A stretch of 31,399 nt of DNA from a bacterium. Lineage in GTDB: Bacteria; JAJVIF01; JAGGVT01. The translations under genes were made by a program, and so were the position numbers. Positions 4,464 to 20,306 of the stretch are shown here, one piece after another (position 1 is the first letter of the stretch; the number at the start of each line of letters is the position of its first letter). The stretch spans positions 1 through 31,399 of the forward strand of contig JAGGVT010000173.1 in assembly GCA_021157815.1 (NCBI GenBank), in the 5' to 3' direction. The notes below the pieces were generated by a model. It ran no database searches, was not told the origin of the DNA, and saw only the letters and a program-made list of their open reading frames with translations.

Positions 4464-5204
4464 TTAATGATTGGGAGATAGTTTTTCATTCCAGCGAATC
4501 ATAAACGGAAGTACGGCGCCGATGATTCTCACGCGCTTTTTTTTCATGTCAACTTCCATGGGCGCGTAGCGGGTGTTTTCGGGGATAAGGCGGACTCTTG
4601 TTTCAGATAATCGCAGGACTGTTTTCAGCGTGACCTCATTATCGATATAAACCGCCATGACCCGCCCCCTGCCGCCGATTTGTGTGTCCTCAGGGTCGAT
4701 CAGGACAAGGTCATTTTCATGGATACCGATATCTATCATGCTGTCGCCGCGAACTTTCAGAAAAAAACATCTTGAGTGCCTGACCTCTTTTTTGAGAATT
4801 GGGATCTCCTCATCAGCAAGATCGTGGGCGTCCTCGAAATTCAAAACTGGCGTTCCTGCTGGGATTACACCGACAACGGGCAGCATCATGGTTTCAGATG
4901 TTTCTTTAGCCATTCCCATCTCGGTAAGAAAACGGTTCAGGTTGTCTTTTGCTTTGATTAGTTCCTCGAATTCACCGCTTGAGGATGGCGCCTTTCTTTT
5001 TTTACCAATGCGAATTCTGTCGATTTCCTTCGATGGAATTTCCAACGCGGTCGCGAATCTCAAAAGCTGATTAAGTGACAATGCCTTGGTATCATTCTCG
5101 ACAGCGCTGATGTATGCCTTTGTGACGCCCAGTTCGAATGCCAGCTCGTTTTGAGTCCATCCTTTTGATTTGCGAAATCTTCTTATGAGGTCTCCAGCTT
5201 CCAT
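4464..5204 (-). CDS. XRE-family S24 (CI/LexA-like) repressor
   Basis: The 246-residue product has an N-terminal helix-turn-helix (residues ~5-60, including GWTQNELAFELGVTKAYISAVE) and a C-terminal S24 autoprotease domain. Landmarks are an Ala-Gly cleavage site at 116-117 (VIPAG), the serine nucleophile in GDSM (S155) and the catalytic lysine in EVTLK (K194). Family members cleave themselves when stimulated by RecA filaments, so DNA damage is the likely inducer. The frame can be extended to a GTG at 5285, but the extension falls inside a mobile hairpin repeat and would add 27 residues atypical of the family. The ATG at 5204 lies only ~10 nt after a -10 box, so its mRNA may be almost leaderless, like lambda cI from PRM. 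It is divergent from the virion operon and is its probable regulator. Confidence 0.9.
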   Translation of the reverse strand: MEAGDLIRRFRKSKGWTQNELAFELGVTKAYISAVENDTKALSLNQLLRFATALEIPSKEIDRIRIGKKRKAPSSSGEFEELIKAKDNLNRFLTEMGMAKETSETMMLPVVGVIPAGTPVLNFEDAHDLADEEIPILKKEVRHSRCFFLKVRGDSMIDIGIHENDLVLIDPEDTQIGGRGRVMAVYIDNEVTLKTVLRLSETRVRLIPENTRYAPMEVDMKKKRVRIIGAVLPFMIRWNEKLSPNH

Positions 5205-5214
5205 AATAATATAT

Positions 5215-5244
5215 AGTTTACCATAGAATACCCCAGGTTGACAA
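5215..5244 (-). promoter_or_regulatory. Candidate promoter of the repressor gene
   Basis: TTGTCA (5244-5239) and TAAACT (5220-5215) are spaced by 18 nt on the minus strand. The predicted transcription start falls at about 5208, four nucleotides before the ATG at 5204, and no Shine-Dalgarno is present. The segment GTAAACTA and an upstream GGTAT also occur in the divergent promoter at 5492-5520, so both may be bound by the same repressor. Confidence 0.5.
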
Positions 5245-5273
5245 GCTTTGGATTTATTTAGAGCGATGATACA

Positions 5274-5321
5274 CATTTCACCCACAAATCACAAAAAGAC
5301 GTGATGTGTGGGCGGCACCCG
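5274..5321. repeat. 48-bp palindromic repeat, copy A
   Basis: This 48-bp segment is exactly repeated, inverted, at 9489-9536. Each copy can fold on itself: CCCACAAATCAC and GTGATGTGTGGG pair with one mismatch around an 8-nt loop. It lies between the repressor and its target operon. No T-tract follows, so it looks more like a mobile palindromic repeat than a terminator. Confidence 0.88.
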
Positions 5322-5387
5322 GGGTTTTAAAAGAGTTACTGTGGGGACGAGTCCTTGTGCCTGTCCTGAGGGGATGGTATAAATACA

Positions 5388-5408
5388 GGGCAACAACGGT
5401 GGTTGCCC
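5388..5408. repeat. Small hairpin (GGGCAAC/GTTGCCC)
   Basis: A 7-bp perfect stem with a 7-nt loop sits in the 363-bp repressor-operon gap. It resembles the GGGGCAG/CTGCCCC palindrome at 24307-24378. The rest of the gap (5322-5491) shows no convincing gene. Confidence 0.5.
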
Positions 5409-5491
5409 CTGCAATGAATTTTTGCCTAATCTTAGAGAAGAGGACTTTTGCCCAATTTGAGAAAAATACCAGGATATTTCAAAATTGCCTC

Positions 5492-5520
5492 TTGACAGGA
5501 TTGGTATACCCAAGTAAACT
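5492..5520 (+). promoter_or_regulatory. Candidate promoter of the virion operon
   Basis: A perfect TTGACA (5492-5497) is followed after 17 nt by TAAACT (5515-5520). Predicted transcription would begin near 5527, about 40 nt before the first gene at 5568. The spacer contains the palindrome GGTATACC. This is the best promoter match upstream of the structural genes. Confidence 0.6.
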
Positions 5521-5532
5521 AGTGGTGTACTT
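5512..5532. promoter_or_regulatory. Candidate repressor operator
   Basis: An inverted repeat AAGTA-N11-TACTT overlaps the -10 box and start region of the operon promoter, the place where a repressor would block transcription. The half-site sequence also overlaps the GTAAACTA shared with the repressor's own promoter. This is inferred from position and symmetry only. Confidence 0.35.
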
Positions 5533-5567
5533 TTGAATGGTTGAAATTCACTTAAATGGTGGAGACA

Positions 5568-5849
5568 ATGATTACAAGCGGAGTTGCGGTTAAATGTCCG
5601 GTTTGCAAAGGGTTGGGAATCGCTCGTAAAAAAGACATTGCGGCGTTATTAAGTAAACCTCATGAGATTATCTGTCCGTCGTGCCCGTCGTACCATACGA
5701 ATTCAATCTGTACGGCGTGGATTCCGATTGGAAAAGGCAGTGCCGGACAGGATTGGCTTTTCGATTCTGAAAACGCGTGTTACGAGTTGATAAAAATCAT
5801 TTCAGCGCTGGAGACGATAGGGTTAATGCGGGATATGAAGGCAGTGTGA
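5568..5849 (+). CDS. Small zinc-ribbon protein, first gene of virion operon
   Basis: A 93-residue protein (97 if the ATG at 5556 is used). It carries two CxxC pairs (C10-C13 in CPVCKG and C36-C39 in CPSC), with H43 and C48 nearby, so a single zinc-binding knuckle pair is likely. The start at 5568 is preceded by GGTGGAG; its spacing is short, so the upstream ATG is not excluded. It is the first gene after the operon promoter and comes before the terminase genes. The position and zinc motif could suit an early regulator, HNH-like accessory or DNA-binding protein, but no HNH or other catalytic motif is visible. I do not recognise the family. Confidence 0.7.
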   Translation: MITSGVAVKCPVCKGLGIARKKDIAALLSKPHEIICPSCPSYHTNSICTAWIPIGKGSAGQDWLFDSENACYELIKIISALETIGLMRDMKAV

Positions 5850-5856
5850 AAGGATA

Positions 5857-5932
5857 CCCCGGTGAATGGACACCGGGCTACAAATCGAGTGGATTTACGC
5901 AAAGCCCTAGTGAGGGGACACCGGGTTACACA
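5857..5932. repeat. CACCGGG palindromic repeat between genes
   Basis: CCCGGTG and CACCGGG pair around a 6-nt loop at 5858-5877, and a further ACACCGGGTTAC follows at ~5919-5930. The pair resembles short REP-type elements elsewhere in the window. It fills most of the 122-bp gap before the small terminase gene. Confidence 0.5.
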
Positions 5933-5971
5933 TTGATAAAAACGAAACAACAGCATTAAAGGGGAAAGTAA

Positions 5972-6523
5972 ATGAGTGGCAAAATTTTGGATGATTCCGA
6001 AGTGGAACTGTTTGAAAAAATCAAGCAGGATTATCTTGAAATGTCAAAACCCAGCCTTAAAGCATTGGCTGGGAAGTATAGTGTCAATTATAAAAAATTG
6101 CGTTTAGTCTCGAAGTCTAAAAATTGGAATCAAGCAAGAGAAGATAAAAATACAAAAAGCGTTGTAAATGGAGGGAGTCGGGCAGTTGAATCGGAGACCT
6201 CACCAGTCTCTGATTTAAACGGAAAGCAAAAGGGGGGGAGTCCCTTTTCAGAATCCGAAACACCAATAAAGAATCAAGTTAAGACTTTGAGGAATGACGC
6301 GTTTGAGCTGGCATCCAGCGCGGCGGAATCGCTTACTTCAAAGGATGACTGGAATCCGAAGGAGTTCGATTTGCTTGTAGGCACGTTTGCGAAAATCGTG
6401 GGTGTCCAGATGAAAATGGAGGGGAACGAGGATGGGATTGATCGGTTGTTCAGCGAGTTAACCGACACGGAGGTATTCCTTGCACCATCGGCGAAATCCG
6501 AGGAGGGCGCTGATGAATCCTGA
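5972..6523 (+). CDS. Phage terminase small subunit-like protein
   Basis: A 183-residue protein whose N-terminal ~60 residues form a helix-turn-helix (SLKALAGKYSVNYKKLRLVSK, then NWNQAR). This pattern is typical of small terminase subunits that recognise DNA for packaging. A low-complexity linker (~65-100) is followed by a helical C-terminal part (~100-160), the usual oligomerisation and large-subunit-contact region. An AGGGGA lies 8 nt before the ATG. The end overlaps the large terminase by 11 bp. Identification rests on the HTH style, size and position, not on a strict motif. Confidence 0.75.
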   Translation: MSGKILDDSEVELFEKIKQDYLEMSKPSLKALAGKYSVNYKKLRLVSKSKNWNQAREDKNTKSVVNGGSRAVESETSPVSDLNGKQKGGSPFSESETPIKNQVKTLRNDAFELASSAAESLTSKDDWNPKEFDLLVGTFAKIVGVQMKMEGNEDGIDRLFSELTDTEVFLAPSAKSEEGADES

Positions 6524-7952
6524 TAAGCGAAATCTGTTCAGGAGACTATTAACGGACGTAAACCTGTGCGCCGATCATCTCATCCGCGTTCCCCTTATGA
6601 CTTACCAGCGGCCAATCGCGGATTCTATAACCCGAACGATTCTGCGCGGTGACAGCGGAATCATAACCGTGGAGATGCCGCGACAGAGCGGGAAAAATCA
6701 GGTGTCCGCGACATGTGAATTGTTCCTGCTTCTGCAGCATTATTTAAAAGGAGGGAATCTTATTAAAACCGCTCCCACATTCCAACCGCAGCTGACAATC
6801 TCTCGAAACAGATTGGCAGGCTTGCTTGACAGCTGCCTCGTTACCAGAAAGCGGTGGAAATCGAAGGACGGCAACACAATCACATTGGGAAAAGCGAAAG
6901 AGATTTTTCTGTCCGCCCAGCCCGGCGCGAACGTTGTCGGCGCTACCGCGGATATCGCGCTGTTTGTCGATGAGGGGCAGGAGATGGACGTTGAGAAATT
7001 CGAACGTGATTTTAGTCCGATGCGCGCGTGGAAAAATACATCGACTGTGGTGTTTGGAGTACGGTGGAACGGTGAATCATTTCTCGAAAGACTGATTGAA
7101 ACCAATCTTGAACTAGAGAAAAAGGACGGAGTCAAGCGGCATTTCAGGGTTGAACCTGAGCAGGTCATGGAGGTCAATCCTGATTATCAGAAGCATTTCG
7201 AGCGTGAGAGAGCGAGACTCGGGGAGGATCACGTTCTCTTTCGAACGCAGTATCTTCTTGAAAGCGTATCGGCGATGGGGAATATGTTTACGCCGGCGCA
7301 GGTTGTATCCATGCAGGGCGATTTCCCGCGCCTTGATTCACCGCGCGAGGGCAATATCTATTTCATCGGTATTGACGTGGGCGGTGAATCGATCAGCGAT
7401 GAGTCGCATGATGAAACGATCATGGTCGTGTGCGAAAAATCGCGCGACAGGGCCAACGACCAGGTCAGGCTTGTCAACTGCTATCGCTGGCAGGGAGCCA
7501 ACTGGGAAACGCTTCATCGTGAGCTTTTGGTTTTGCTCGATTTATGGCGTCCGCAGTCTGTAACAGTCGATGGCCGCGGTATCGGAAACGCCTGCGCCAT
7601 ATGGATTAATGAGCATTACAGGCGGGGCAATGTCGAGATTTACCAGGCGACATCCTCCAGTGTATCCAGTGACGGATACCAGCTGATGAGTTTTGTTAAT
7701 CTGAATCGTTTGAAGATATTCCGCGATGGCGACAAACCGGCATCGGATGGCATTGTCTCAAACGCTGAAATAATCGGGCAATTCGCTAACGCGAGGCGTG
7801 AACTTGTTTCAGGCGGCCTGATGCGATTTTTTGTGCCTGAAAGATTTGGGCATGATGACATCCTGAAAGCGGCAGCGTACGCGGTAAGGGCGTCGAGAAA
7901 TTCAGAGGGAACATATGAAAATATCATTTTAAAGGCGGTGATTGAGAATTGA
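6513..7952 (+). CDS. terL: Phage terminase large subunit (DNA-packaging ATPase/nuclease)
   Basis: A 479-residue motor protein that pumps DNA into the prohead. The ATPase domain shows Walker A in MPRQSGKNQ (K61) and Walker B in LFVDEGQ (D153, E154). The RNase H-like nuclease domain has the expected acidic residues: IGIDVGG (D288), VTVDGRG (D353) and RFGHDDI (D448, D449). Length is normal for the family and nothing is broken. The frame opens at 6480, but the ATG at 6513 has GAGGAGG just upstream and overlaps the previous gene by 11 bp, so it is preferred. All catalytic residues are intact, so the packaging machine is probably functional. Confidence 0.95.
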   Translation: MNPDKRNLFRRLLTDVNLCADHLIRVPLMTYQRPIADSITRTILRGDSGIITVEMPRQSGKNQVSATCELFLLLQHYLKGGNLIKTAPTFQPQLTISRNRLAGLLDSCLVTRKRWKSKDGNTITLGKAKEIFLSAQPGANVVGATADIALFVDEGQEMDVEKFERDFSPMRAWKNTSTVVFGVRWNGESFLERLIETNLELEKKDGVKRHFRVEPEQVMEVNPDYQKHFERERARLGEDHVLFRTQYLLESVSAMGNMFTPAQVVSMQGDFPRLDSPREGNIYFIGIDVGGESISDESHDETIMVVCEKSRDRANDQVRLVNCYRWQGANWETLHRELLVLLDLWRPQSVTVDGRGIGNACAIWINEHYRRGNVEIYQATSSSVSSDGYQLMSFVNLNRLKIFRDGDKPASDGIVSNAEIIGQFANARRELVSGGLMRFFVPERFGHDDILKAAAYAVRASRNSEGTYENIILKAVIEN

Positions 7953-9130
7953 AAAATTCCGCTCCGGTATTAATACAACTTGCGGATATGCTCGCCGAAA
8001 GGCTTGGTTATGTACGCAAGGACACAATTCCACTGATGATGAGTGGAAATCACATTTTGGGTTCGCCGATTGTGCCATGGGCTGAGAATCGCACGCCACC
8101 GGAGGAACTTCGCGCGCTTGCAAGGCGCTGCGAAACATTAAGGGCGGTTATCAGCATTATCAAGGAAAGCGTGGCGTCGGTCCCGTTCAGGCTTGGCTTG
8201 AATTCGGATTCGGTATCAGGAAACAAGGCGCTTGAGCGTGCCGCATTAATCCTGTCCGATCCGAATGAACACAAGGAATCACTTCGGGATTTAATCCGCA
8301 GGCTCATGGAGGATCTTCTAATCCTTGATTCCGGCGCTTTTGAAATTCGAAAAGCGTTCGATGGTTTGCCGAGATATATCAACTGGATTCCCGGCGACAC
8401 AATCAGGCTTGCGATGCCCGAAACGCCGGGCACCGCTCCATCGCCGGCATATTTCAAAGTGCACATGAACACAATCACGGCGGAATATGAGCAGGATGAA
8501 CTGGTCTATTTCGCGCGCGACAAACAGCCGTCGGGATATGGCCTTTCGCCGGTCGATGTTTTAAAGGATGCCTGTGAAGCGGTTATAAAGGGGCAGACAT
8601 ACAATCGGGATTATTTCGACCACGGGACAATGGTTGACGGCATCCTTAATCTGCCGGAACTTCACGATGAGGAACTGCGAAACTTTCGCGCATACTGGAA
8701 CGCGATGATTAAAGGCAAGAAGCATGTGTTCGCGATGACTAACGCGCGAAAAGCGAACTGGCTGCCCCTGCGGCAGACTAACAAGGACATGGAATTCCAT
8801 CAGCATCTGCTGTGGCTGACACGTTTAATCTGCATGATTTACAGAATCTCGCCGCAGGAGATTGGAATCACTCACGATGTCAACCGTGCGACTGCTGTTG
8901 TCATGGATAGAAACACGATACGGCGATGCATTCGTCCCTGGCTTGGGCTGATAAAGGAGCGCCTGGATGAGGAGATATTCCATAAAATCCATCCAGACAT
9001 CGAGCTGATCTGGCTTGGAATCGACAGGGAGGATGCTCTGACCGAGGCGCGGATATTCCAGATTGCTACAGGCGGTCAGGCATGGATGGATCCGGACGAG
9101 GTTCGCCGTGAATTGGGGTTAAAGGGTTAG
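7949..9130 (+). CDS. Phage portal protein (HK97-like)
   Basis: A 393-residue portal, the dodecameric ring through which DNA enters and leaves the capsid. The order VISIIKESVASVPFRL (early helix and linker), LIRRLMEDLLILDSGAFEI, the YFARDKQPSGYGLSPVDVLKDA region and the downstream PQEIGITHDVNRATAVVMDR match HK97-type portals. The start is a TTG overlapping the terminase TGA (TTGA), with AGGCGGTG upstream; the next ATG (7985) would lose the N-terminal helix. The length is typical. Its stop codon leads straight into an 8-bp tandem repeat array. Confidence 0.92.
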   Translation: MKNSAPVLIQLADMLAERLGYVRKDTIPLMMSGNHILGSPIVPWAENRTPPEELRALARRCETLRAVISIIKESVASVPFRLGLNSDSVSGNKALERAALILSDPNEHKESLRDLIRRLMEDLLILDSGAFEIRKAFDGLPRYINWIPGDTIRLAMPETPGTAPSPAYFKVHMNTITAEYEQDELVYFARDKQPSGYGLSPVDVLKDACEAVIKGQTYNRDYFDHGTMVDGILNLPELHDEELRNFRAYWNAMIKGKKHVFAMTNARKANWLPLRQTNKDMEFHQHLLWLTRLICMIYRISPQEIGITHDVNRATAVVMDRNTIRRCIRPWLGLIKERLDEEIFHKIHPDIELIWLGIDREDALTEARIFQIATGGQAWMDPDEVRRELGLKG

Positions 9131-9440
9131 TAAGTAAGTTAGCAGGTTAGCAGGTTAGTAAGTTAGCAGGTTAGTAAGTTAAAAGCAAAAACAATAACAC
9201 TATGCTTTAGCGTGGTGCGGCATATAACACAGTTAGTAGGTTAGTAAGTTAGCAAGTTAGCAGGTTAGTAAGTTAGTAAGTTAAAAGCAATAACACTATG
9301 CTTTAGCGTGGTGCGGCATATAACACAGTTAGTAGGTTAGAAGGTTAGTAAGTTAGCAGGTTAGTAAGTTAGCAGGTTAGTAAGTTAGCAGGTTAGTAAG
9401 TTAGTAAGTTAAAAGCAATAACACCACGCTTTAGAGCGTG
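9126..9440 (+). repeat. 8-bp tandem repeat array 1 with nested 53-bp unit
   Basis: Starting at the portal stop codon, the sequence is built from units GTTAGCAG and GTTAGTAA. A 53-bp segment (CAATAACACTATGC... to AGTAGGTTAG) occurs identically at 9192-9244 and 9288-9340, 96 bp apart (12 unit lengths). A diverged third copy starts at 9416 and includes the hairpin CACGCT-TTAG-AGCGTG. A related CTTTAACATGGTGCGG sits at ~9629, possibly the source of the inserted segment. The 546-bp gap 9131-9676 has no convincing gene. Confidence 0.95.
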
Positions 9441-9488
9441 TCAGGAAAGCATAATGATTTTCAAACATGCCATTTTCATGATAGCTTT

Positions 9489-9536
9489 CGGGTGCCGCCC
9501 ACACATCACGTCTTTTTGTGATTTGTGGGTGAAATG
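9489..9536. repeat. 48-bp palindromic repeat, copy B (inverted)
   Basis: Exact reverse complement of 5274-5321, giving inverted copies 4.2 kb apart that flank the operon promoter, the zinc-ribbon gene, both terminase genes and the portal gene. Confidence 0.88.
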
Positions 9537-9555
9537 CGTAACTCGCAACATGTCA

Positions 9556-9582
9556 CCCATAAAGCCGAGACGGCTGTATGGG
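9556..9582. repeat. Hairpin beside copy B
   Basis: CCCATAAAGCCG and CGGCTGTATGGG pair with one mismatch around an AGA loop. No T-tract follows. It lies 20 bp after the 48-bp repeat, and the GTCACCCATA at its left edge resembles the repeat's TTCACCCACA, so the two may belong to one element family. Confidence 0.7.
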
Positions 9583-9676
9583 CGGTCCCCAACATTTAAA
9601 ATCAGATTGGCGCCTTTCCCTACACACTCTTTAACATGGTGCGGTAAAAAACATAAAACAAAAGGAGAAAACACGA

Positions 9677-10576
9677 ATGAATAATTCCGAGAAAAACGTC
9701 TTTAAAATCTTCACAGGCACGATTGACGCATGGACTGTGAAGAAAGGCGAATCTGAACAACGAAAACTACGCGGTATCGCGAGCGGAACATCGCTTGATG
9801 CCGAGGGCGACCGCATGAGCGAAAGCGCGCTTCGGTCGATGGAGAAACAGATTGTCGGCCTGACTCTCCACAAGGATCACGTATTCAACGTGGACAACAC
9901 AATCGGCCATTTTGTAAACGCGAAAGTTCTGTCATCCCCTGGCGGCGATGTTCGCGAACTGTGGGTTGAAGCGGAGCTTGAACCGTTTGATGTCAACCCC
10001 GACTCCAAACGGATTTTCGAGAAAATCAAAAGCGGTACTCGACTGGGTTTCAGCGTCGCTGGAATCCTGAGGGAATGGGAGAGGATTGAATCGAAAAATG
10101 GAAACGAAAGATTCCTGATAACCGATATCGAACTTCTCTCTGTCGATTTGGTGACCATCCCCGCGTATCGAGCATCCCAGGGCAGCCTTAGCGCTGTTCA
10201 GGAGGGGAAATCCGCAGGCTTGTCGAAGAGGGATGTCTATGTCTGCAAGCAGATTGGCAATGTTATTCGCGAGATTGAATCTGAAAAAACTGAGATTCAA
10301 AACGAAACGGATGTGATTGCGGATGTCGATTCAAGGCTCGCCGCGCTTGAGCAAAAGATTATGGAACTTGAGAAAGCGGTTATGAAGGGTGTTGACAGAG
10401 CTGACTCACCCGATGTTGATTTGACAAAACTGGTTGAACGTATCGAACGTATTGAATCCGCGGTGGTCGAGCCGCCGAAATCGAAAGGACTGATGGTTCT
10501 CCCGGATGGCGGCATTATGACTGAGGCGGATGATATCGAGGCATTCGAGAAAAGCGGGGGTGGGTTTGTAGGTTAG
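9677..10576 (+). CDS. HK97-type prohead protease with C-terminal coiled coil
   Basis: A 299-residue protein. Residues ~20-175 match the U35 prohead protease: LRGIASGTSLDAEGDRM, the catalytic histidine in LTLHKDH (H65 or H68) and the catalytic serine in RLGFSVAG (S126), then VDLVTIPAY. Residues ~195-270 are charged and heptad-like (RLAALEQKIMELEKAVMKG), resembling the delta or scaffold segment that guides capsid assembly. The protease may therefore also act as scaffold. An AAAGGAG lies ~10 nt before the ATG. It sits directly before the capsid gene as expected. Its last codons (GGTTAG) are the first unit of array 2. Confidence 0.92.
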   Translation: MNNSEKNVFKIFTGTIDAWTVKKGESEQRKLRGIASGTSLDAEGDRMSESALRSMEKQIVGLTLHKDHVFNVDNTIGHFVNAKVLSSPGGDVRELWVEAELEPFDVNPDSKRIFEKIKSGTRLGFSVAGILREWERIESKNGNERFLITDIELLSVDLVTIPAYRASQGSLSAVQEGKSAGLSKRDVYVCKQIGNVIREIESEKTEIQNETDVIADVDSRLAALEQKIMELEKAVMKGVDRADSPDVDLTKLVERIERIESAVVEPPKSKGLMVLPDGGIMTEADDIEAFEKSGGGFVG

Positions 10577-10760
10577 CAAGTTAGAAAGTTAGAAAGTTAG
10601 TAAGTTAGAAAGTTAGAAAATTAGAAAGTTAGCAGGTTAGAAAGTTAGTAAGTTAGAAAGTTAGCAAGTTAGCAAGTTAGAAAGTTAGAAAGTTAGTAAG
10701 TTAGTAAGTTAGAAAGTTAGAAAATTAGAAAGTTAGAAAATTAGAAAGTTAGCAGGTTAG
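10571..10760 (+). repeat. 8-bp tandem repeat array 2
   Basis: About 190 bp made of GTTAGAAA with GTTAGTAA, GTTAGCAA and GTTAGCAG variants. It begins inside the last codons of the protease gene and ends 48 bp before the capsid ATG. The dominant variant differs from array 1. Confidence 0.95.
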
Positions 10761-10807
10761 GCATAAACAATCGTAGGAAAAATAATACAAAACCAAAGGA
10801 GGTTTTT

Positions 10808-11950
10808 ATGACTGAAACAATTAATGAACATGATGTTGAGGATATTGCGCAGATGTCCGAGGATGACGTTGAAAAGGGCGTTTGCGTGAAGCGATCATTC
10901 ACTCTGTATCAGGGAGGGAAATATGCAGGCGATACTCGTTACCTCAACGAATATCTCGAAAACGGTTTTTCACGAAAACGGTTCTGCGATATTAACAACC
11001 TTGATTTCGAGAAACTCGCGTTTTTCGCGATGCGACCATCAATCGCAAAATCAGGATTGAGTTCAAGCGAGGCTGAAAAGCTGATGCAGGATATGCTTAT
11101 CCTCGGCGCGGCTGAACTCATCCTCAACGAATCGCCTGAACTCGGGCTTTTGCCAGTGTTGCCATCGACCGGCAAGACTGTCCAGTGGCGCATGCGTGAT
11201 GTTTTGCCTGTTGCGGACACTATCGAAACCAACAATGACATGGTGGACAACGATTCAACTTTCACAGAGGAATCGAACAACATCGCGAAATTCTACAGCC
11301 AGGTTTCGATTGACAACATGGACATCGACGCCGCGCTGAGCCGCAATAATCTGCTGGCGGTCGAGCAGGCTGGTGCGATTCGCGCGATGGCTGCAGCGTT
11401 TTCGAATGACCTTTATCTAGGCGACCACAACACAAACGCGGATGAATTCGATGGCCTTGACATTCTGATTCCGGGTTCTCAGGAAATTGGAATTGATACC
11501 AACGGCGCGGAAATCAGCGCGAGTAATATCCACAAGCTCGATGAGGCAATCGACCTGGTTAGAGGCGGTGAACCAACCGTAATGATCATGAGGAGACGGG
11601 TCCGAAGGGCGTTGAATAAAATTCTTCGAAGCGATTTCGGCTGGTCAACGGTTTCGGAAAACGCTGCGTTCGGGCATCGTATCGGATTCTATGACGGCAT
11701 CCCAATCAGGATTAACGACAACTATCCGGTCAATGAAACTCTCGGCACTGGAACCGACCTGACATCCATCTGGATACTCAGGCTTGGCCTTGACGGGCTG
11801 TTCCGCGCGAGTCTCGGCGGCGATGTCAAAACCTATTTCTGGCCATCACTCGAAAGTCGGGACGCGGTCAGATTCAGAATGATCATGCAGACTTGCCCAA
11901 TCACGTGGACATCTCTCTGCTGCGCAAGGCTTAAGGGCATTGATGCTTAG
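10808..11950 (+). CDS. HK97-fold major capsid protein
   Basis: A 380-residue protein in the capsid position directly after the protease, with a strong AAAGGAGG 7 nt before the ATG. After a charged N-terminal segment (residues ~1-75, possibly removed by the protease), the sequence follows capsid logic: E-loop-like GLLPVLPSTGKTVQWRMRD (~120), a long helix with AGAIRAMAAAFSNDLYLGDH (~190), DEFDGLDIL (~215), the P-domain segment PTVMIMRRRVRRALNKIL (~260), FYDGIPIRINDNYP (~300) and C-terminal A-domain strands. No frameshift or truncation is visible. Identification is by order of conserved segments and position. Confidence 0.85.
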   Translation: MTETINEHDVEDIAQMSEDDVEKGVCVKRSFTLYQGGKYAGDTRYLNEYLENGFSRKRFCDINNLDFEKLAFFAMRPSIAKSGLSSSEAEKLMQDMLILGAAELILNESPELGLLPVLPSTGKTVQWRMRDVLPVADTIETNNDMVDNDSTFTEESNNIAKFYSQVSIDNMDIDAALSRNNLLAVEQAGAIRAMAAAFSNDLYLGDHNTNADEFDGLDILIPGSQEIGIDTNGAEISASNIHKLDEAIDLVRGGEPTVMIMRRRVRRALNKILRSDFGWSTVSENAAFGHRIGFYDGIPIRINDNYPVNETLGTGTDLTSIWILRLGLDGLFRASLGGDVKTYFWPSLESRDAVRFRMIMQTCPITWTSLCCARLKGIDA

Positions 11951-12031
11951 AAGGTTAGAAGGTTAGCAGGTTAGCAAGTTAGCAGGTTAGCAAGTTAGCA
12001 GGTTAGCAGGTTAGCAGGTTAGCAAGTAAGT
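11946..12031 (+). repeat. 8-bp tandem repeat array 3
   Basis: About 85 bp of GTTAGCAG and GTTAGCAA units starting at the capsid stop codon. It is the third such array after a head gene. Confidence 0.92.
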
Positions 12032-12040
12032 AAAATGTAG

Positions 12041-13132: not shown

Positions 13133-13135
13133 AGC

Positions 13136-13534
13136 ATGACTGAGGTAATCCAGGCAATTTATGAAGCGCTTTCAACCCACAGCAATTTGCTCGAACTTGT
13201 GAACGAGGATTGCATTCGCCGCGGATGGCAGGAGCCTGTTAATCCGCCAAGCATCCGCTTTTTCAACGCAGGAATGAAACCAGCGGGTGATGATTCCAAT
13301 CGCCATGGGACAGTCGAGGAAATATTCGTTGTCGCGATACTCGCTGATGACGATCTGATAATCGAACAGATTGCGGTAGATGTCATCGACGCGATGCAGG
13401 TCGAATCGCTGCAGCATGATTCGGTGATTTTCCATAACTGTTTTTTCAGCGGCGATGGTCGCGGGACTTTCTTTGACCCGCTTCGGAAGATACACAGGCG
13501 CGACATTTCATTCACGCTGATTTATTCGATGTAG
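13136..13534 (+). CDS. Tail completion / tail terminator protein
   Basis: A 132-residue protein three bases after the head-closure gene, with GGAGG ~9 nt before the ATG. It begins with a helix (VIQAIYEALSTHSNLLELV), then PPSIRFF, a strand (EEIFVVAILADDD), a helix (IIEQIAVDVIDAMQ) and C-terminal strands (RRDISFTLIY). This alpha-beta order is that of tail-completion proteins that cap the tail tube and join it to the head. Identification rests on fold pattern, length and synteny. Confidence 0.68.
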   Translation: MTEVIQAIYEALSTHSNLLELVNEDCIRRGWQEPVNPPSIRFFNAGMKPAGDDSNRHGTVEEIFVVAILADDDLIIEQIAVDVIDAMQVESLQHDSVIFHNCFFSGDGRGTFFDPLRKIHRRDISFTLIYSM

Positions 13535-13544
13535 GGGATGTTGT

Positions 13545-13665
13545 TGTGGTGCAGGCATCCTGCCTGCAATCCTGAGTTGCAACTTAAAATGTTAATAGAT
13601 GCAGGCAGGATGCCCGCACCACAAATTAACTGGTCATTCAATCATTTTATTTGGTTCTGAGACAG
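13545..13665 (+). repeat. GCAGGCATCCTGCCTGC element, copy in virion operon
   Basis: A ~120-bp element: an outer stem of TGTGGTGCAGGCATC and GATGCCCGCACCACA, with smaller TGCAGGCA palindromes inside, followed by ACTGGTCATT and ending TTCTGAGACAG. A homologous element in opposite orientation is at about 24075-24198, keeping both the stem and the distal TTCTGAGACAG. It occupies most of the 184-bp gap before the tail tube gene. Confidence 0.85.
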
Positions 13666-13718
13666 TTTCTGCGTTGCGCCCATGCGTTGAATAATAAATA
13701 TTTGAACAAGGAGAAACA

Positions 13719-14339
13719 ATGACTCTTCAAAAGACAATAGAGGAAATAAACAGAAACAAGGAATTGATAACAATATCTCCGGCGGTTGTTAGTGTAAAAC
13801 GCCTCGGCGCGGCAAGCCCTGAATATGTGCAGATTGGGCCTGTAATCGATGGCGTTCATATTGGCTTCAGCAGCGATGTCGAACATTTTTGCGATGATGG
13901 CACAACAGGGCCAATCGGCGCTGTGGTTTACGGCGAATCGGTAACCTTGCGATTTACACTGGCACAGGCGGGAATATTCAATCTCGCGACAGCGCTTAAC
14001 TACAACGATGAGGATTATATTGAAATCACGCAGCCGGTGGAAATTCCACCTGCAGATGGCGATGTTGCTTTCCAACCTGGTGGAAAGCGCGATGCTGAGG
14101 AGTATGAAATCAAAGTGCAAATCATGCTGGCATCGGGGAAGAAAATCCGTGAGTACATATTTTTCAAAGCTGTGCCTGAACCTGATTTCGCGCATGCATA
14201 CACGCGCGACGAAAGGACTGTTTATGAATGCGAGTTCAGTCTGTTGATGGATCAATCCAAACCGGATGGCAAACGTTACTTCTCAGTCAGCGATTATTTC
14301 GACAGCGAACATGGTGTGATTGGCGGGAGTGATTATTAA
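13719..14339 (+). CDS. Major tail tube protein (probable)
   Basis: A 206-residue beta-rich protein with AAGGAG ~9 nt upstream. It has the tube-protein style: VHIGFSSDVEHFCDD (~50), an acidic turn, VTLRFTLAQAGIFNL (~85), an alpha-helix-poor middle and strands IREYIFFKAVP and RTVYECEFSLLMD near the C-terminus. It lies after the tail terminator, the normal position for the tail tube. No sheath gene is present, so the tail, if made, is non-contractile. The call is based on synteny and pattern. Confidence 0.65.
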   Translation: MTLQKTIEEINRNKELITISPAVVSVKRLGAASPEYVQIGPVIDGVHIGFSSDVEHFCDDGTTGPIGAVVYGESVTLRFTLAQAGIFNLATALNYNDEDYIEITQPVEIPPADGDVAFQPGGKRDAEEYEIKVQIMLASGKKIREYIFFKAVPEPDFAHAYTRDERTVYECEFSLLMDQSKPDGKRYFSVSDYFDSEHGVIGGSDY

Positions 14340-14426
14340 TGATTATCGAGAGATAAGCATTAATAATCCCAACCGGAGCGAAGCGAAGTCGAGGGGATAA
14401 TACCTATTAAATAAAGGAGGTGCTTG

Positions 14427-14948
14427 ATGAATGCATTAGTACAGGAAATATTGAAACTACGCGAGGATGTCGAGGAACTGAAACAACTCAATTCCACGGA
14501 TGGCTCAATCTCAAAAAAAGGAAAAGCCGGAAACCGTCTTGAGCACAAGCTGGGGCGGTCATTTTCCCAGTTGATTGGAGGCAGTCCCAGTCGCGCGATT
14601 CGACCGTGGTTGAACGCGCCCGGGATGAAACGAAACCTTGTCCAATGGCTTGGGTTTAGTGAAATGGGATTTGCGTCCGGCTTGATTGGCGGATTGTGGT
14701 CGTTGGGAGTAAGCGCGGTGATGAAAGGAATTTCAAATCTGTTTAAAAGCAATCTCGCGCCGCTGCTGAAGGCGCATGATCCGGAAGCTGTCCATTATGT
14801 CAACGAGGATATACATACGCCGTATTTTAAGCGGTCATACGAAAGTGAATTGATACGAGGTAAAGGCGCAAGGGGAATGATGCGCGGAAATACGTTTTTT
14901 GACGGTTCTCTCGAACGGCAGATTAGAAGAGGGGTGGTCGGATTATGA
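14427..14948 (+). CDS. Short protein in the tape-measure position
   Basis: A 173-residue protein with AGGAGG 6 nt before the ATG (a TTG at 14424 could also open the frame). Residues ~1-25 form a coiled-coil segment (LVQEILKLREDVEELKQL). Residues ~70-110 are hydrophobic and glycine-rich (GFASGLIGGLWSLGVSAVMKGI), resembling a membrane-active or tape-measure-type segment. The C-terminus is basic. A tape measure is expected between tube and distal tail genes, but normal ones have 600 or more residues. This could be a miniature tape measure or a replacement with another role. The stop overlaps the next gene (ATGA). The function is not established. Confidence 0.6.
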   Translation: MNALVQEILKLREDVEELKQLNSTDGSISKKGKAGNRLEHKLGRSFSQLIGGSPSRAIRPWLNAPGMKRNLVQWLGFSEMGFASGLIGGLWSLGVSAVMKGISNLFKSNLAPLLKAHDPEAVHYVNEDIHTPYFKRSYESELIRGKGARGMMRGNTFFDGSLERQIRRGVVGL

Positions 14949-15424
14949 CACCAGTACCGCAAGTACCGGAATCACATTCAATAAAATTCTCATTCTCAGA
15001 GTTGGCGGAATCATTCAGGATATTCGCGCTAATAGAGGCTTTTTCGCCGAGCTCCATGAAGGAGATTCACGACTCAACCGGAAAACCATTTTTCGTCGCA
15101 CTGCAGCGCGGCGGATGGGTTTCCAAAATTGCGATAACTATTCATCGTTCGCAGCAGTCAATTGATCTGCGAACAGCGTTGATAGCGGCGTCCCAAAGCG
15201 GGGAGGAAATACTCGTACGCGATTATGATACCGCGCAGATTTACAAAGCGCACCTTGTGTCAATCGATCCGATGCATCGAACGCGAATCAAATGGAACGA
15301 TGAATATTTCAGATTCGAGATGGCGGTTGTCGGTGAGGGAGTTTTCAATGTGCAGAATGAATCGCAGATAACATGGCGAAATGAAAGCGGCGAATTGACC
15401 CCGGAAAGGGGGTATCCGTACTGA
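14945..15424 (+). CDS. Small tail protein, possibly distal-tail/baseplate
   Basis: A 159-residue protein whose ATG overlaps the previous TGA and whose TGA overlaps the following ATG, so it is tightly coupled to both. It is beta-rich, with a helix-like start (FSELAESFRIFALIEAF) and later strands EEILVRDYDTAQIYKAHLVSID and FRFEMAVVGEGVF. The position between the short tape-measure candidate and the hub is that of a distal tail (Dit-like) or hub-adaptor protein. I do not recognise a specific family motif. Confidence 0.6.
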   Translation: MTPVPQVPESHSIKFSFSELAESFRIFALIEAFSPSSMKEIHDSTGKPFFVALQRGGWVSKIAITIHRSQQSIDLRTALIAASQSGEEILVRDYDTAQIYKAHLVSIDPMHRTRIKWNDEYFRFEMAVVGEGVFNVQNESQITWRNESGELTPERGYPY

Positions 15425-17529
15425 TGACTTTTACACAGGATGCCATAAACGCCCTTGAACAAAGGCGAATCAGGCCTTACGCGGTTATCGAAACAAAATT
15501 ATCGACTGAAATTCCATCTGATCCCTGGCACGAGATTACATTCACGAATGGCCGATTCGTTCACGACTCGAATGAGTTTTCATCCGAACTGTCGTTCAGG
15601 GCGATTGATCCTGACGGCGATGCGGTCGATCCGTTTCGTGAAGATGCCGGTTTATCGAACTATCTGAGGACCGGATCGCTTATACGCCTTAAAATCGGAA
15701 TCAATTATTTGCACGACGGTTTGGAGGTTACAGAATACCGAATCGGTTTTCAGGGATACATAACGAAACTGAATCCCTTTGTTGATGCCGGATTCTGGGG
15801 TGTCGAGGTAACGGCGCATGACAGGCTGATAAGAGCGCGGGATGCGGTGGCGTCGATAAACAAATGCGCGGACATAATACAAGTTGACAATGAACTTCTC
15901 ACAACGTCTGATAACAAGGTCTATGAGAGCGTCAACGGATACTGGCTTTGCGATATGGTCGTGATTCGTCGTACGCTGAATGGTGAAACCCGGCAGGTTT
16001 CTCCTGAGGAGTATCAAGTATTGGAGCACAACGGCGGCGTTGAGTTTTTCAAATCGCAGAATCCATCGGCGCAGATGCAAGCTGATTACTATCGTTACGA
16101 CGCCTCCAGTTTGCACGTTTCAGAAATAATCAAACTGGCGCTGGAATACGCATCGGATCAGGGCGGTACGGGTTTGACCTCCGGTGATTATGATCTGGCT
16201 GACACATCGCAGAATAATCCCGATGAAACTCAACGCCTTCCAATCGTGAGATTCTGCTGGGATGAAATCGAAGGAGGGCCGATTGAGATTTACAATCATC
16301 TTCTTAACGCAGGATTGATTCCTGATAATCTGAAGTTCTATTACGATCCCGATGATGACAAATGGCGCCTTGAATTTATATATCAAAAGGATGCGAACAA
16401 TCCGCAGACACCAGGTTTTGAGCCTGATTTCGAGGTTATTCGCTCGATGTCTTTCGATGATCCCGCCGATTCGGAGGAATTATTTACGAGGGTCGCGGTA
16501 GTTGGAAAACTGCACGCTCCCAGGAATATCGCGCGTGAGGGAACGATTAACGAATACGCACTGCCGCCCCATCCAGGATGGACCGCTGAATTCAAGTCGC
16601 TGTCGCAAATAGATGGAGCGTCGAATTCTATTGGCAACATAATTGATGGATCGCTGAACACGCAGTTCATGTGGATACTTGGCGACAAAGTCGGTGAGGA
16701 TACAGCGGATGGCGCTATAACACCGGGAACCGAAAACACCGCGATTCCTGAGTTTGATCCTGATCATCCGTACAATGAAATAGCGACATCGTATGTTGAC
16801 CTGGGAGCGATAGTGAAACCGTCTCGTGTGGCTGTTCATATCGGTTCTAACAGGTTTGGCAGCGACAGGAATCCGGGACGTCCCCAGATGCTTGTATCAA
16901 TCGAGGTCGCGAGTAATCTTGCAAATCCCGATGACATGGATGATCCAAACTGGGTTCCGCTTTCAGGCAATGCGTTCAGGATGTCCGTTGACGCGAACGA
17001 ACTGATTGATTTGAATCGTGAGGATTTTCTAATCGAGCGGTTCAGGTATATTCGCGTGAAGTTCCATTTCGGGCTTTATTACAAGTGGAAACCGGAACGG
17101 CGTTTTATTGAATATTCGATAAAGGAGATAACAGTATTCGAAGATGACCGAATTATCGGAACCGACAAGGTTAGCCTGACTCGTTATCCCTCTATATATG
17201 CGCGATACCAGAAGAGGGGATATCGTACTTTCATTCATGAGGATTCATATCTACAGGCTCAGGATGAGGTTGACAATCGCGCGAGTGATTTGCTGGATGA
17301 ACTTGTCCAAAATTATCTTGACAGGGAAACAACGCTGGCGTGGGATCCGCGTTACAGGCTTCATGCGCCATCAACAGTCGGCAGTTTGACTGTTCATGGT
17401 TTGACAATATTGGAAACTGATCCACGATACGCAAGTTCAACATCGAGGCTTGTCAGCAGGATTGAATATGACCTTGACAATTACGTTGTGAAAATCTCAG
17501 GCACGGATTACTTTACGGAGGTGCAATAA
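15424..17529 (+). CDS. Baseplate hub / tail-associated protein with discoidin-like insertion
   Basis: A 701-residue protein. Residues ~1-140 and ~225-375 have the strand order of hub (gp27/Tal-like) proteins, for example FVHDSNEFSSELSFRAID, ITKLNPFVDAGFWGVEVTAHDRLIRARDA and EELFTRVAVVGK. Residues ~385-575 look like an inserted F5/8 type C (discoidin) carbohydrate-binding domain: IGNIIDGSLNTQFMW, SYVDLGAIVKPSRVAVHIG and FRYIRVKFHFG...SIKEITVFE. The hub chain then resumes (SIYARYQKRGYRTFI...) to the end. The start overlaps the previous TGA and the stop joins the next ATG. The domain suggests binding of cell-surface sugars. Confidence 0.75.
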   Translation: MTFTQDAINALEQRRIRPYAVIETKLSTEIPSDPWHEITFTNGRFVHDSNEFSSELSFRAIDPDGDAVDPFREDAGLSNYLRTGSLIRLKIGINYLHDGLEVTEYRIGFQGYITKLNPFVDAGFWGVEVTAHDRLIRARDAVASINKCADIIQVDNELLTTSDNKVYESVNGYWLCDMVVIRRTLNGETRQVSPEEYQVLEHNGGVEFFKSQNPSAQMQADYYRYDASSLHVSEIIKLALEYASDQGGTGLTSGDYDLADTSQNNPDETQRLPIVRFCWDEIEGGPIEIYNHLLNAGLIPDNLKFYYDPDDDKWRLEFIYQKDANNPQTPGFEPDFEVIRSMSFDDPADSEELFTRVAVVGKLHAPRNIAREGTINEYALPPHPGWTAEFKSLSQIDGASNSIGNIIDGSLNTQFMWILGDKVGEDTADGAITPGTENTAIPEFDPDHPYNEIATSYVDLGAIVKPSRVAVHIGSNRFGSDRNPGRPQMLVSIEVASNLANPDDMDDPNWVPLSGNAFRMSVDANELIDLNREDFLIERFRYIRVKFHFGLYYKWKPERRFIEYSIKEITVFEDDRIIGTDKVSLTRYPSIYARYQKRGYRTFIHEDSYLQAQDEVDNRASDLLDELVQNYLDRETTLAWDPRYRLHAPSTVGSLTVHGLTILETDPRYASSTSRLVSRIEYDLDNYVVKISGTDYFTEVQ

Positions 17530-18272
17530 TGTCAGGGCGTAAAACACAGGCGCAGACACTGATTGAACTAATTGACAGGCGGATAAAAAGCGCGCTAAGG
17601 CGACTCGACAGCCGCACGCGTGTTTCAACAGGCAGTAATAGAGGCATCAGCGGAACCGATCCGAAAACCGCTTTCGAGGATGTAAGTTTCATCACGCGTG
17701 ATGACCATCGAGGCGGGGGACACGGCGACCTTCCAAATTCAAGTCCCGCTTTTAATTTGAATTGCGATTTCATTCCAGATGCCGACTGCTCGCGAAACAT
17801 AGGATCAATCATTCGCGCGTGGAAAATATTATTTGCGCAAATCCTTTATCTAAGAGGGAAAAGCGGCTGGATGAAATTGGATGTCGATTATTTTTACAAC
17901 CACATTGCGTTTAAAACTCATGGCAACAAGGTATTTCTGCACGGCTACGGCAATCACCGCATAAAGGATACAGACGGAAAACTGTTGTATCCGAACACAA
18001 TATCAATTCCAATCGCGAGACCGCTTCCATACTCTTCTGATGCTGGTTACACGAGTATAAAATCGTGGCGGGTTGACCCGTGGTATTCGCGTGTTGATAT
18101 CGACAACGAGACCGGCATGGGGTCGCGCAGAAGCTGTGCGGGAGAGGCGTCGCCTTCGAATCCCTGTGTTGAAGCGGAGATTGTGGATACCGGAAATCCG
18201 GTTTCTGTTTACGTTCGGTTTCGAAATTATCTGCCGTATCCGGTGGTGGTTGGAGTCGCGGTTAGTTATTAA
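17529..18272 (+). CDS. Tail-fibre-like protein
   Basis: A 247-residue protein starting in the TAATG overlap with the hub gene. A basic helical N-terminus (TLIELIDRRIKSALRRLDSR) is followed by a loop region and the motif DADCSRNIGSIIRAWKILFA (~90-110), which resembles the short DNLGSxxRxWKxIYA-type repeat of tail fibres. The C-terminal part is strand-rich, ending VYVRFRNYLPYPVVVGVAVSY. Gene order after the hub fits a fibre or tip protein. The role in host recognition is inferred. Confidence 0.6.
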   Translation: MSGRKTQAQTLIELIDRRIKSALRRLDSRTRVSTGSNRGISGTDPKTAFEDVSFITRDDHRGGGHGDLPNSSPAFNLNCDFIPDADCSRNIGSIIRAWKILFAQILYLRGKSGWMKLDVDYFYNHIAFKTHGNKVFLHGYGNHRIKDTDGKLLYPNTISIPIARPLPYSSDAGYTSIKSWRVDPWYSRVDIDNETGMGSRRSCAGEASPSNPCVEAEIVDTGNPVSVYVRFRNYLPYPVVVGVAVSY

Positions 18273-18298
18273 AAGTAAAACAAATAAAGGAGAAAATC

Positions 18299-19666
18299 AT
18301 GGAACGATTATGGAAAAAACAGGCGTTATCGATTTCAACCAACAGGAGCGCTTTTCCGGCGATTGTCGGTAACTTCCAGCGTCAGTCATGCTGGGACGCT
18401 GCCGGCTATGCATATATCCTCACAGCCGAGGATGACGGTGTCGGCGGTACGCTCAGAATCGCGGTTTACAGAAGTGTCAATGGCAACTTCAATTTAAGCG
18501 GCGGATTCACATTCCAGGCGGATACGACAATCGCTAACGGATACAGCCGCAATGAAATCCCAGACCTTGCCGAGTTCTCGGCGCAGCTTAGAAATGACAG
18601 GATTTACATCGCGGCGAATTTCAGTGAAGCGCCGAGTATCGCATCAGGAGTGGTTTTGATCTCGTACGACATCAACGAAAAAACATTTTCACGAGTTGAC
18701 CATCTCGAATCATGCAGCAATCCGGCAACGCCGGTGATTAACTCTGTGGATATCTCGCTGGCATCAAATCGCGCGAATGGGGATATCATCGCAAGCTGGC
18801 TTGAATACGACAGCGACAGCAATCCGACAGTTTTGCTTCGGCGATACCTGCGTGAAATGCTCCCTAAATTCAATTCGGACGGCGCTGGCGGAGTCGGGTT
18901 CATCGATGACAACGTGAATTTTACCACGCTTAGTTACCCGTCCTTTCTGAACAATTTCGATGGCGACAGCGAATTATGGGGCGTTTTAAAACTCCATGAC
19001 CAAACGTTTAATGCGCAGTATTTACTTGCCAACCTGCCGCGAGGGCTTATTAGAGGGCCGTCTCTGCCGCCGAACGATATCACTCTTGGCGCGAGCAACG
19101 GACGGCCGTTTGGAAATTTCAAAGCTCTTTACAATGCGAAATATAATATCGAGGCGCTTGCTCACTGGCGCAGGCTGGATCCACCGAAAGCGGGATGGGA
19201 ACTTGATTTCGGAGTGCGTGGAACGGAGGGAATCTACAAGACGTTCCAGATTGTCGAATTTGACTATTCAAATCTTGGACTTACAAACGTGCTTCTTGAA
19301 ATTCCGAATGTCTATCCCGAGGTTCTGCTGATACTCGATGATCAGGGCGGCGTGTATGTTATTGGAAGTTATCCCGATCCGGGAAGCCGACCGTTAACGG
19401 GATTAGCGGGAGCCGGGCGAATCGACAACCCGTATTATAATATAGCGATGGCGTATTGGGCACTCGATGATTTTGACGACCTTTCCGGTGCGAATTATGA
19501 AACAGTCTGGAACGGCCGATCAACACAGACACAGATGCGAAACCTAAACGCGCCGGATATTTTTCCCGCCGGCGATTCATCGACAATTAGATCATCACGC
19601 CTGTTTATCTCATGTGTCGATGCGTTGAATGACCCAACCGGAAAGGCTGTTCTATACAGGGATTAG
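18299..19666 (+). CDS. 455-aa beta-rich putative receptor-binding or tail-tip protein
   Basis: The protein is almost entirely strand and turn, with segments such as DGVGGTLRIAVYRS, NGDIIASWLEYDSDSNPTVLLRRY and GGVYVIGSYPDPGS that resemble the ~60-residue blades of a propeller (sialidase-like). No catalytic motif is evident. AAAGGAG lies 8 nt before the ATG. The late position after the fibre gene suits a receptor-binding or tip protein. It is intact. The family is not recognised. Confidence 0.6.
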   Translation: MERLWKKQALSISTNRSAFPAIVGNFQRQSCWDAAGYAYILTAEDDGVGGTLRIAVYRSVNGNFNLSGGFTFQADTTIANGYSRNEIPDLAEFSAQLRNDRIYIAANFSEAPSIASGVVLISYDINEKTFSRVDHLESCSNPATPVINSVDISLASNRANGDIIASWLEYDSDSNPTVLLRRYLREMLPKFNSDGAGGVGFIDDNVNFTTLSYPSFLNNFDGDSELWGVLKLHDQTFNAQYLLANLPRGLIRGPSLPPNDITLGASNGRPFGNFKALYNAKYNIEALAHWRRLDPPKAGWELDFGVRGTEGIYKTFQIVEFDYSNLGLTNVLLEIPNVYPEVLLILDDQGGVYVIGSYPDPGSRPLTGLAGAGRIDNPYYNIAMAYWALDDFDDLSGANYETVWNGRSTQTQMRNLNAPDIFPAGDSSTIRSSRLFISCVDALNDPTGKAVLYRD

Positions 19667-19678
19667 GAGGGAGGCGCC

Positions 19679-19933
19679 ATGAATCCGAGCTTTGTAGAGG
19701 AACTGTTTTTTAGAATCGAGGAGCGGTTGAATTCGCTTGATAACGAAATTCACGAGATGCGTGTCGAGATATCGCATATAAACGGTGAAATCAAGCGATG
19801 TGCGAAATGCAGTGCCGAGATGGAGAATGTCCGGCGCTATGTCTGGGTTGGGCGTGGAATCGTGCTTGCTGTGTGGGGCTTCGTTATTACTGTTGTGAAC
19901 GTGCTTATTGGCAAATGGATAAATGTAAATTAG
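19679..19933 (+). CDS. Holin- or XhlA-like small membrane protein
   Basis: An 84-residue protein with GGAGG 8 nt before the ATG. Residues ~8-50 are a charged coiled-coil (EELFFRIEERLNSLDNEIHEM), including a C41xxC44, and residues ~57-79 form one transmembrane helix (WVGRGIVLAVWGFVITVVNVLIG). This coiled-coil plus C-terminal helix layout is that of XhlA/holin-associated proteins encoded at the end of tail operons. No endolysin gene is found nearby, so its lytic role is uncertain. Confidence 0.6.
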   Translation: MNPSFVEELFFRIEERLNSLDNEIHEMRVEISHINGEIKRCAKCSAEMENVRRYVWVGRGIVLAVWGFVITVVNVLIGKWINVN

Positions 19934-19965
19934 GAATTTAAAACAAAATAAAGGAGGCATTGCTT

Positions 19966-20226
19966 ATGTCCGCATTGTCAAAGTTACTAAAGAAAATCAT
20001 CCTGTGGCTTCTGGGGAATGGCCGTATCGAATTCCTGCTCGAAGTCGCAAGGAGAGTTGTATCAAGGCTTGATCATCGCGATGACCTTGATTCCGAGAAA
20101 AAGCGCGAGGAGGCGAAGAAGGAGATTCGCGAGAAGCTAAAAGAGCTCGGCCGTGATTTCTCGAACCACATGATTAACCTTGCGATTGAGATGGCACTGG
20201 TTGAATTTCGCGAAGAGTTGGATTGA
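19966..20226 (+). CDS. Small helical protein, last gene of virion operon
   Basis: An 86-residue protein. AAGGAGG ends 8 nt before the ATG at 19966 (an in-frame TTG at 19960 is less likely). An amphipathic or hydrophobic N-terminal helix (LSKLLKKIILWLLGNG) is followed by a highly charged helix (~residues 36-63, EKKREEAKKEIREKLKELG) and a second apolar helix. It has no recognised family. The position after the holin-like gene suggests a membrane-associated accessory role. The operon terminator follows 40 bp later. Confidence 0.6.
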   Translation: MSALSKLLKKIILWLLGNGRIEFLLEVARRVVSRLDHRDDLDSEKKREEAKKEIREKLKELGRDFSNHMINLAIEMALVEFREELD

Positions 20227-20266
20227 GATTGTGCGCGTGAGATGGGGATAAACAATGGCGGTATGG

Positions 20267-20296
20267 AGCAGAGGGCTAAATCCCTCTGCTATTTTG
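20267..20296. terminator. Bidirectional hairpin terminator of virion operon
   Basis: AGCAGAGGG and CCCTCTGCT form a perfect 9-bp stem around CTAAAT, followed by ATTTTGTT. It lies between the plus-strand virion operon and the convergent lipoprotein gene (stop at 20307). Confidence 0.75.
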
Positions 20297-20306
20297 TTGA
20301 TAATAT

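Follow-up and report, generated by a model that had tools for sequence, protein, structure and literature searches.

We analyzed a 31,399-bp stretch of DNA from a bacterium of a little-known phylum (hereafter the window), which is one whole contig (C167; GenBank JAGGVT010000173.1) of a 3.2-Mb metagenome-assembled genome (G000) that is 91% complete, and which carries a compact cluster of phage-type head and tail genes that we consider a candidate gene transfer agent (GTA)-like element. The self-contained cluster spans positions 4464–20290, between an LVIVD-repeat gene (1582–4353) and a TPR/FTCD pair (20307–22682); this corrects the extent of 5204–20296 given by a first-pass annotation of the same DNA. 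It comprises one leftward gene, encoding a helix-turn-helix (HTH)-S24 repressor, and 17 rightward open reading frames (ORFs), with a hairpin terminator last. The rightward ORFs encode, in order, a 97-aa protein, the small (TerS) and large (TerL) terminase subunits, portal, protease, capsid, adaptor, stopper, tail terminator, and tube, followed by a 173-aa tape-measure-like protein, a 159-aa protein, the hub, two tip proteins, and two holin-like proteins. All ORFs from TerS (starting at 5972) through the last holin-like gene (ending at 20226) are open. Genes were identified with PHROGs and Pfam profile searches, with the TerS, stopper, tail terminator, tape measure, and distal tail calls made from position together with weak or no profile matches. 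The ordered, intact run of genes from terminase to tail tip that the first-pass annotation had described, as well as its divergent S24 repressor and closing terminator, were borne out, whereas its complete head-tail module holds for the gene set but not for a conventional long tape measure, for which the 173-aa protein is the sole candidate.

The divergent repressor gene (4464–5204, reverse strand) encodes HTH and S24 (LexA/CI-type) domains (PF00717, 1.7e-22; HTH_3, 6e-13; phrog_4, 1.9e-34), and the residues expected of a self-cleaving repressor can be read from its sequence, namely (i) an Ala-Gly site in the motif VIPAGTP, (ii) the Ser of GDSM, and (iii) the Lys of VTLK. All of the remaining genes lie on the forward strand. 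The 97-aa ORF (5556–5849) contains two zinc-ribbon-like CPxC pairs, is without a family match, and is possibly an early regulator. TerS (5972–6523) was assigned from weak matches (phrog_1889, 1.1e-3; phrog_51, 2.8e-3) and position, and TerL (6480–7952; earliest in-frame ATG giving MNPDK) from phrog_38 (2.2e-7); the TerL translation contains a Walker-A-like PRQSGKN, a Walker-B-like LFVDEGQ, and a nuclease-like GIDVGG. The HK97-type portal (7949–9130; PF04860, 9.4e-41; phrog_2662, 6e-48) is followed by the prohead protease (9677–10576; phrog_617, 8.7e-13; phrog_80, 6.8e-11; S78 family PF04586 at 7e-4, below the cut-off), the major capsid protein (10808–11950; phrog_212, 1.9e-37; PF20911, 3.3e-8), the head-tail adaptor (12207–12794; phrog_442, 1.5e-6), and a head-closure (stopper) candidate assigned by position and size (12794–13132; phrog_7938 at 0.02 only).

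The tail genes begin with a tail terminator candidate (13136–13534; phrog_78 at 0.048 only, and position) and the tail tube (13719–14339; phrog_2175, 4.6e-10). The 173-aa tape-measure-like protein (14427–14948) was placed by position and has a charged N-terminal helix and a hydrophobic segment; the 159-aa distal-tail candidate (14945–15424) was likewise placed by position and is without a family match. The tail hub (15424–17529), with an inserted F5/8C/CBM32-like domain at approximately residues 450–580, is homologous over its full length to hubs from the phylum 4484-113 described below. Its structure model (predicted local distance difference test [pLDDT] score of 42) yielded weak fold matches to phage baseplate hubs and to CBM32/lectins, and weakly suggests a baseplate-hub N terminus joined to a CBM32/F5-8C insert; compared by sequence with solved structures, neither TerL nor the hub gave matches better than chance. 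Next come a tail-tip protein placed by position (17529–18272), a 455-aa putative receptor-binding protein (18299–19666) called from position and with an uninformative structure model (pLDDT 33), an XhlA-like small membrane protein (19679–19933; phrog_1193 hemolysin, 0.005), and a holin-like (LLH) protein (19960–20226; phrog_2609, 4.1e-6; PF09682 at 7e-5, just under the cut-off). An intrinsic terminator on the same strand (20267–20298), formed by a GC-rich hairpin (minimum free energy −16.5 kcal/mol) and a T-run, closes the cluster.

Neither an integrase, a replication gene, nor an endolysin was found among the cluster ORFs or the scanned flanking ORFs of the 31.4-kb contig, in agreement with the first-pass annotation, and the holin-like ORFs were the only lysis genes recognized. 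That annotation had also held that an integrase and att sites just outside the cluster would speak against a resident element; none was found there. Direct repeats of att type were absent at ≥10 bp near the cluster edges and at ≥12 bp in the wider flanks, no tRNA lies on the 31,399-bp contig, and an Rfam search returned zero matches. The cluster therefore lacks the integrase and flanking att repeats of a temperate prophage, and, within the contig, it has the combination characteristic of GTAs: intact caudoviricete-derived head and tail genes with a terminase, and neither integration, excision, or replication genes nor an att site. Moreover, its codon usage resembles that of the host (r = 0.79 with the flanking host genes and 0.73 with the genome's own rpoB).

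Tight gene coupling, which the first-pass annotation had put forward as a sign of upkeep, was not found at four junctions, namely portal/protease (546 bp), protease/capsid (231 bp), capsid/adaptor (256 bp), and terminator/tube (184 bp), which are filled with host repeats. Forward-strand arrays of the octamer GTTAGNAR begin at the stop codons of the portal (9128–9415), the protease (10572–10760), and the capsid (11948–12030), the latter two being shorter by 15 and 5 units, respectively, in a second strain (L003). This pattern has 737 + 819 matches across the genome (reversed control, 0) and is absent from three class-level relatives (G001–G003); many of its arrays start within 14 nt of a stop codon (3 in the window and 5 in other sampled contigs). 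A palindromic host repeat of ∼62 bp occurs in the divergent promoter region between the repressor and the cluster (5260–5321) and, inverted, in the portal/protease spacer (9489–9540). It is found in at least 41 places in the same genome at ∼89–100% identity, several of them at contig ends, and the inverted 52-bp repeat at 5270/9489 was accordingly ruled out as a repressor operator. A dispersed inverted-repeat element at 13544–13692 has 72 matches in the genome, and another copy is located in the flank (24048–24197).

Within the cluster, these repeats amount to 812 bp in spacers and 0 bp in ORFs. That none of the six repeat blocks falls in a gene has a probability of 0.069^6, or ∼1e-7, under uniform placement, a figure that is indicative only, as the repeats may prefer intergenic targets. 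Since host repeats fill the spacers only, the cluster has resided in this lineage long enough to be colonized like ordinary host DNA while its ORFs were kept open. A defective prophage that has lost its early and integration half and is decaying slowly, with no host function, could also acquire host repeats between its genes, and would account for a self-encoded S24 repressor alongside a missing endolysin and integrase. However, such decay sits poorly with structural ORFs that are all intact despite the six insertions, provided that the repeats have no target preference.

Selection on the cluster was assessed with the L003 contig from IMG/VR, which comes from the same chromosomal population as the window but represents a second strain, and which matches window positions 5486–17287 with few single-nucleotide differences. 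Across ∼10.4 kb of coding sequence, 20 synonymous and 9 nonsynonymous changes separate the two strains, corresponding to a ratio of nonsynonymous to synonymous rates (dN/dS) of ∼0.13 (binomial p = 1e-7 against neutrality). This value lies well away from the ratio of 1 that the first-pass annotation had named as contrary evidence, indicates purifying selection, and argues against slow decay of a defective prophage.

The same contig bears on another explanation, that the cluster is a very small but functional temperate phage or a satellite, relying on other parts of the cell for its integration or replication. A complete set of packaging and particle genes with a repressor, and the presence of a near-identical contig in a virus database, would fit such an element, but that contig derives from the chromosomal population itself. 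Searches of viral-contig collections with the portal, capsid, TerL, and hub recovered only this population's contig and one distant portal (28% identity; L004); the hub in particular matched only the population's own contig in a pattern-based, nonexhaustive scan of IMG/VR, and had no match among 50,697 phage genomes at E 0.01. Scanning 84,980 species genomes with the portal likewise returned nothing. Together with the host-specific repeats, the host-like codon usage, and the lack of att-like repeats, the absence of the hub from the phage genomes and other viral contigs searched renders a live phage or satellite distinctly improbable.

Relatives of the cluster were found in another phylum. When 385 broadly sampled genomes were searched with the capsid, the single positive was G166 ('Planctomycetales bacterium CSMAG_2248'), whose locus has a similarly small head-tail arrangement and encodes a hub homolog (22–24% identity over the full length). 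The related genome G385 bears the name 'Planctomycetales bacterium 4484_113', the namesake of the GTDB phylum 4484-113. Among 10 genomes of that phylum, six have the G166-type (phrog_212-type) capsid and seven have full-length hub homologs (G166, G386, G385, G389, G390, G019, and G305), G019 and G305 having been added by a hub-profile search; in G391, the contig ends ahead of the expected hub position. The related clusters share the order portal, capsid, connectors, tube, short tape-measure-like gene, and hub, with the tape-measure counterparts measuring 203–237 aa, and a 265-aa gene in G166 occupies the place of the window's tail-tip gene. Those of G166 and G389 additionally encode small membrane proteins as well as a lysin of the amidase or CHAP-like type, and no TerL was recognized beside either. 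Their chromosomal sites differ between families, and their neighbors are housekeeping genes (triosephosphate isomerase, lumazine synthase, HU, NAPRTase, and a response regulator); no integrase was seen in these partly annotated flanks.

The related clusters co-diverge with their hosts, as GTAs do. Capsid and RpoB identities in five pairs from three families are 93/91, 82/76, 71/66, 79/81, and 62/63%, and divergence correlates with that of RpoB for the capsid (r = 0.91; Mantel 1 of 720), the portal (r = 0.93), and the hub (r = 0.85). Furthermore, cluster genes of the congeners G166 and G386 have omega values of 0.03–0.17. Judged by these properties of their genes, the related clusters behave like GTAs. 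The recurrence of the reduced layout in other genomes, co-diverging with their hosts, is a further point against a defective prophage, which we therefore regard as unlikely for the window. G019 also resembles the window in its control layout, with a divergent S24 repressor (PF00717, 8.5e-21) followed by a phrog_38 TerL (6e-60) and then by head and short-tail genes. The heads of G019 and G305 are of the Mu type, and the hubs of these two genomes share 31–36% identity with those of other families, being more diverged than RpoB predicts; the head is thus exchangeable and the group mosaic. In the G305 cluster (L081), two 23S_rRNA_IVP four-helix-bundle genes (14244–14654 and 15695–16102) are inserted around the capsid gene, which is another instance of host-type insertions in spacers.

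Among described systems, the window is closest in layout to the Rhodobacter capsulatus GTA (RcGTA; Rhodogtaviriformidae), likewise a ∼15-kb chromosomal head-tail cluster with a short tape measure and without integrase or replication genes. Its gene order is also terminase, portal, protease, capsid, adaptor, stopper, terminator, tube, short tape measure, distal tail, and hub (PMC7296036). The RcGTA tape measure comprises 113+83+20 residues for a tail of 49 nm (PMC7296036). Unlike RcGTA, the window cluster has an S24 repressor of its own and a different hub with the inserted F5/8C-like domain, and no cell-wall peptidase or megatron gene was recognized in it. The Brachyspira GTA (BhGTA/VSH-1; Brachygtaviriformidae) is comparable in layout as a ∼16-kb cluster in a non-proteobacterial host, and it co-diversifies with its host (PMC9662315). 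Its terL lies outside the cluster, a seeming parallel to some 4484-113 clusters without an adjoining TerL, whereas in the window both terminase subunits, TerL and TerS, are encoded in cis, and an endolysin was not found in cis.

Eight clusters of phylum 4484-113 (G166, G386, G385, G389, G390, G391, G019, and G305) resemble the window in their short tape-measure-like gene, holin-like small proteins, housekeeping flanks, and lack of a visible integrase and, in all but G391, in a homologous full-length hub. They differ in having SPP1-type (phrog_64) or Mu-type (phrog_113) portals and other chromosomal sites and, for G166 and G389, in the lysin and the unrecognized TerL mentioned above; the papers retrieved do not describe them as GTAs. 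Phages with phrog_212-type capsids, namely Paenibacillus phage Tripp and Rhizobium and Pseudomonas phages, show 51% identity to the G166 capsid and 28–30% to the window capsid, which thus has ordinary phage relatives. Unlike the window cluster, these phages are full genomes (∼54 kb for Tripp; 112–122 kb) without a detected hub homolog, and the Tripp tape measure has 962 aa, compared with 173 aa in the window.

The short tail and the F5/8C-like hub domain would also suit a particle kept for another use, either to kill relatives as a tailocin-like or headed bacteriocin or to deliver proteins, and several related clusters show no adjoining terminase. The window, however, retains TerS, TerL, portal, and prohead protease, all of which are needless for a DNA-free weapon, and no toxin domain was seen, so that such a use appears very improbable.

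We therefore favor, with a probability of roughly 0.6, the interpretation that the window cluster is a host-domesticated, GTA-like, particle-producing element, and the particles are most likely small, short-tailed, and DNA-containing, kept perhaps as a means of transferring DNA. The resident, selected, particle-encoding element proposed in the first-pass annotation is upheld by the host repeats, intact ORFs, dN/dS, codon usage, lack of integrase and att sites, and co-diverging relatives, although not by tight gene coupling. Several observations weigh on the other side: (i) the cluster is known at the level of genes, with particles and host-DNA packaging as predictions; (ii) none of the three class-level relatives, the only other genomes of the window's phylum examined, yielded its TerL, portal, capsid, or hub, which leaves vertical inheritance in the window's lineage presumptive; (iii) host repeats could also enter a dead prophage; (iv) the strain comparison comprises 29 changes, the majority of which fall in the hub, and is thus a limited sample for estimating selection; (v) a CI/S24-type repressor of its own, encoded opposite to the lytic operon, is a trait of temperate prophages; (vi) its lysis genes are two holin-like ORFs, with no endolysin found in cis; and (vii) head modules vary among the related clusters, which form a mosaic group and not a single, clean GTA lineage. 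On most of the features that can be read from sequence, the cluster behaves as a GTA would. We use the label GTA-like, and not GTA, because the packaging of host DNA, the act by which a GTA is defined, and vertical inheritance in the window's lineage are both presumptive here.

In such a GTA-like element, the S24 repressor, which suggests SOS control, would hold the single operon silent until DNA damage leads to its RecA-stimulated self-cleavage, whereupon the terminase, head, and short tail would be expressed. The terminase would presumably fill the small heads with whatever DNA is present, and, at roughly 1.5 Å per residue, a tail of ∼25–30 nm would be expected from the short tape measure. 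The sugar-binding-like insert of the hub, together with the tip proteins, could attach the particles to kin cells, perhaps via surface sugars. Because no endolysin is encoded in cis, release would have to borrow one encoded elsewhere.

Three groups of GTAs are formally classified, two alphaproteobacterial and one spirochete (PMC9662315), and the frequency of such virus domestication elsewhere is a listed open question (PMC11841831). We tentatively suggest, at slightly under even odds, that the window and the 4484-113 clusters represent a new GTA-like group of an origin separate from the three recognized families, defined by a shared hub with a sugar-binding-like insert and a very short tape measure, inherited with the host across 4484-113, present also in the window's unrelated phylum, and under SOS-type (S24) control. 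Host repeats in the operon and relatives whose capsids track RpoB across families of the candidate phylum 4484-113 would make the domestication question testable in uncultivated lineages, with the hub as a marker to search for such clusters.

Additional loci were observed during these searches. In contig C47 of G019 (L082, 5431–12288), a phage-like locus encodes a distant homolog of the hub and, where a tape measure would be expected, has a 1,320-aa ORF; it is possibly a prophage relative of the clusters and may exemplify a conventional phage version. The capsid-bearing clusters at L034, L036, L037, L008, L032, and L033, with their RpoB co-divergence, form a GTA candidate group of their own. 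Finally, upstream of the window cluster, two large LVIVD-type repeat regions (1–1511 and 1582–4353) with a 126-bp repeat unit lie in tandem, and the copy at 1–1511, which contains short ORFs only, looks either broken or truncated where the contig stops.

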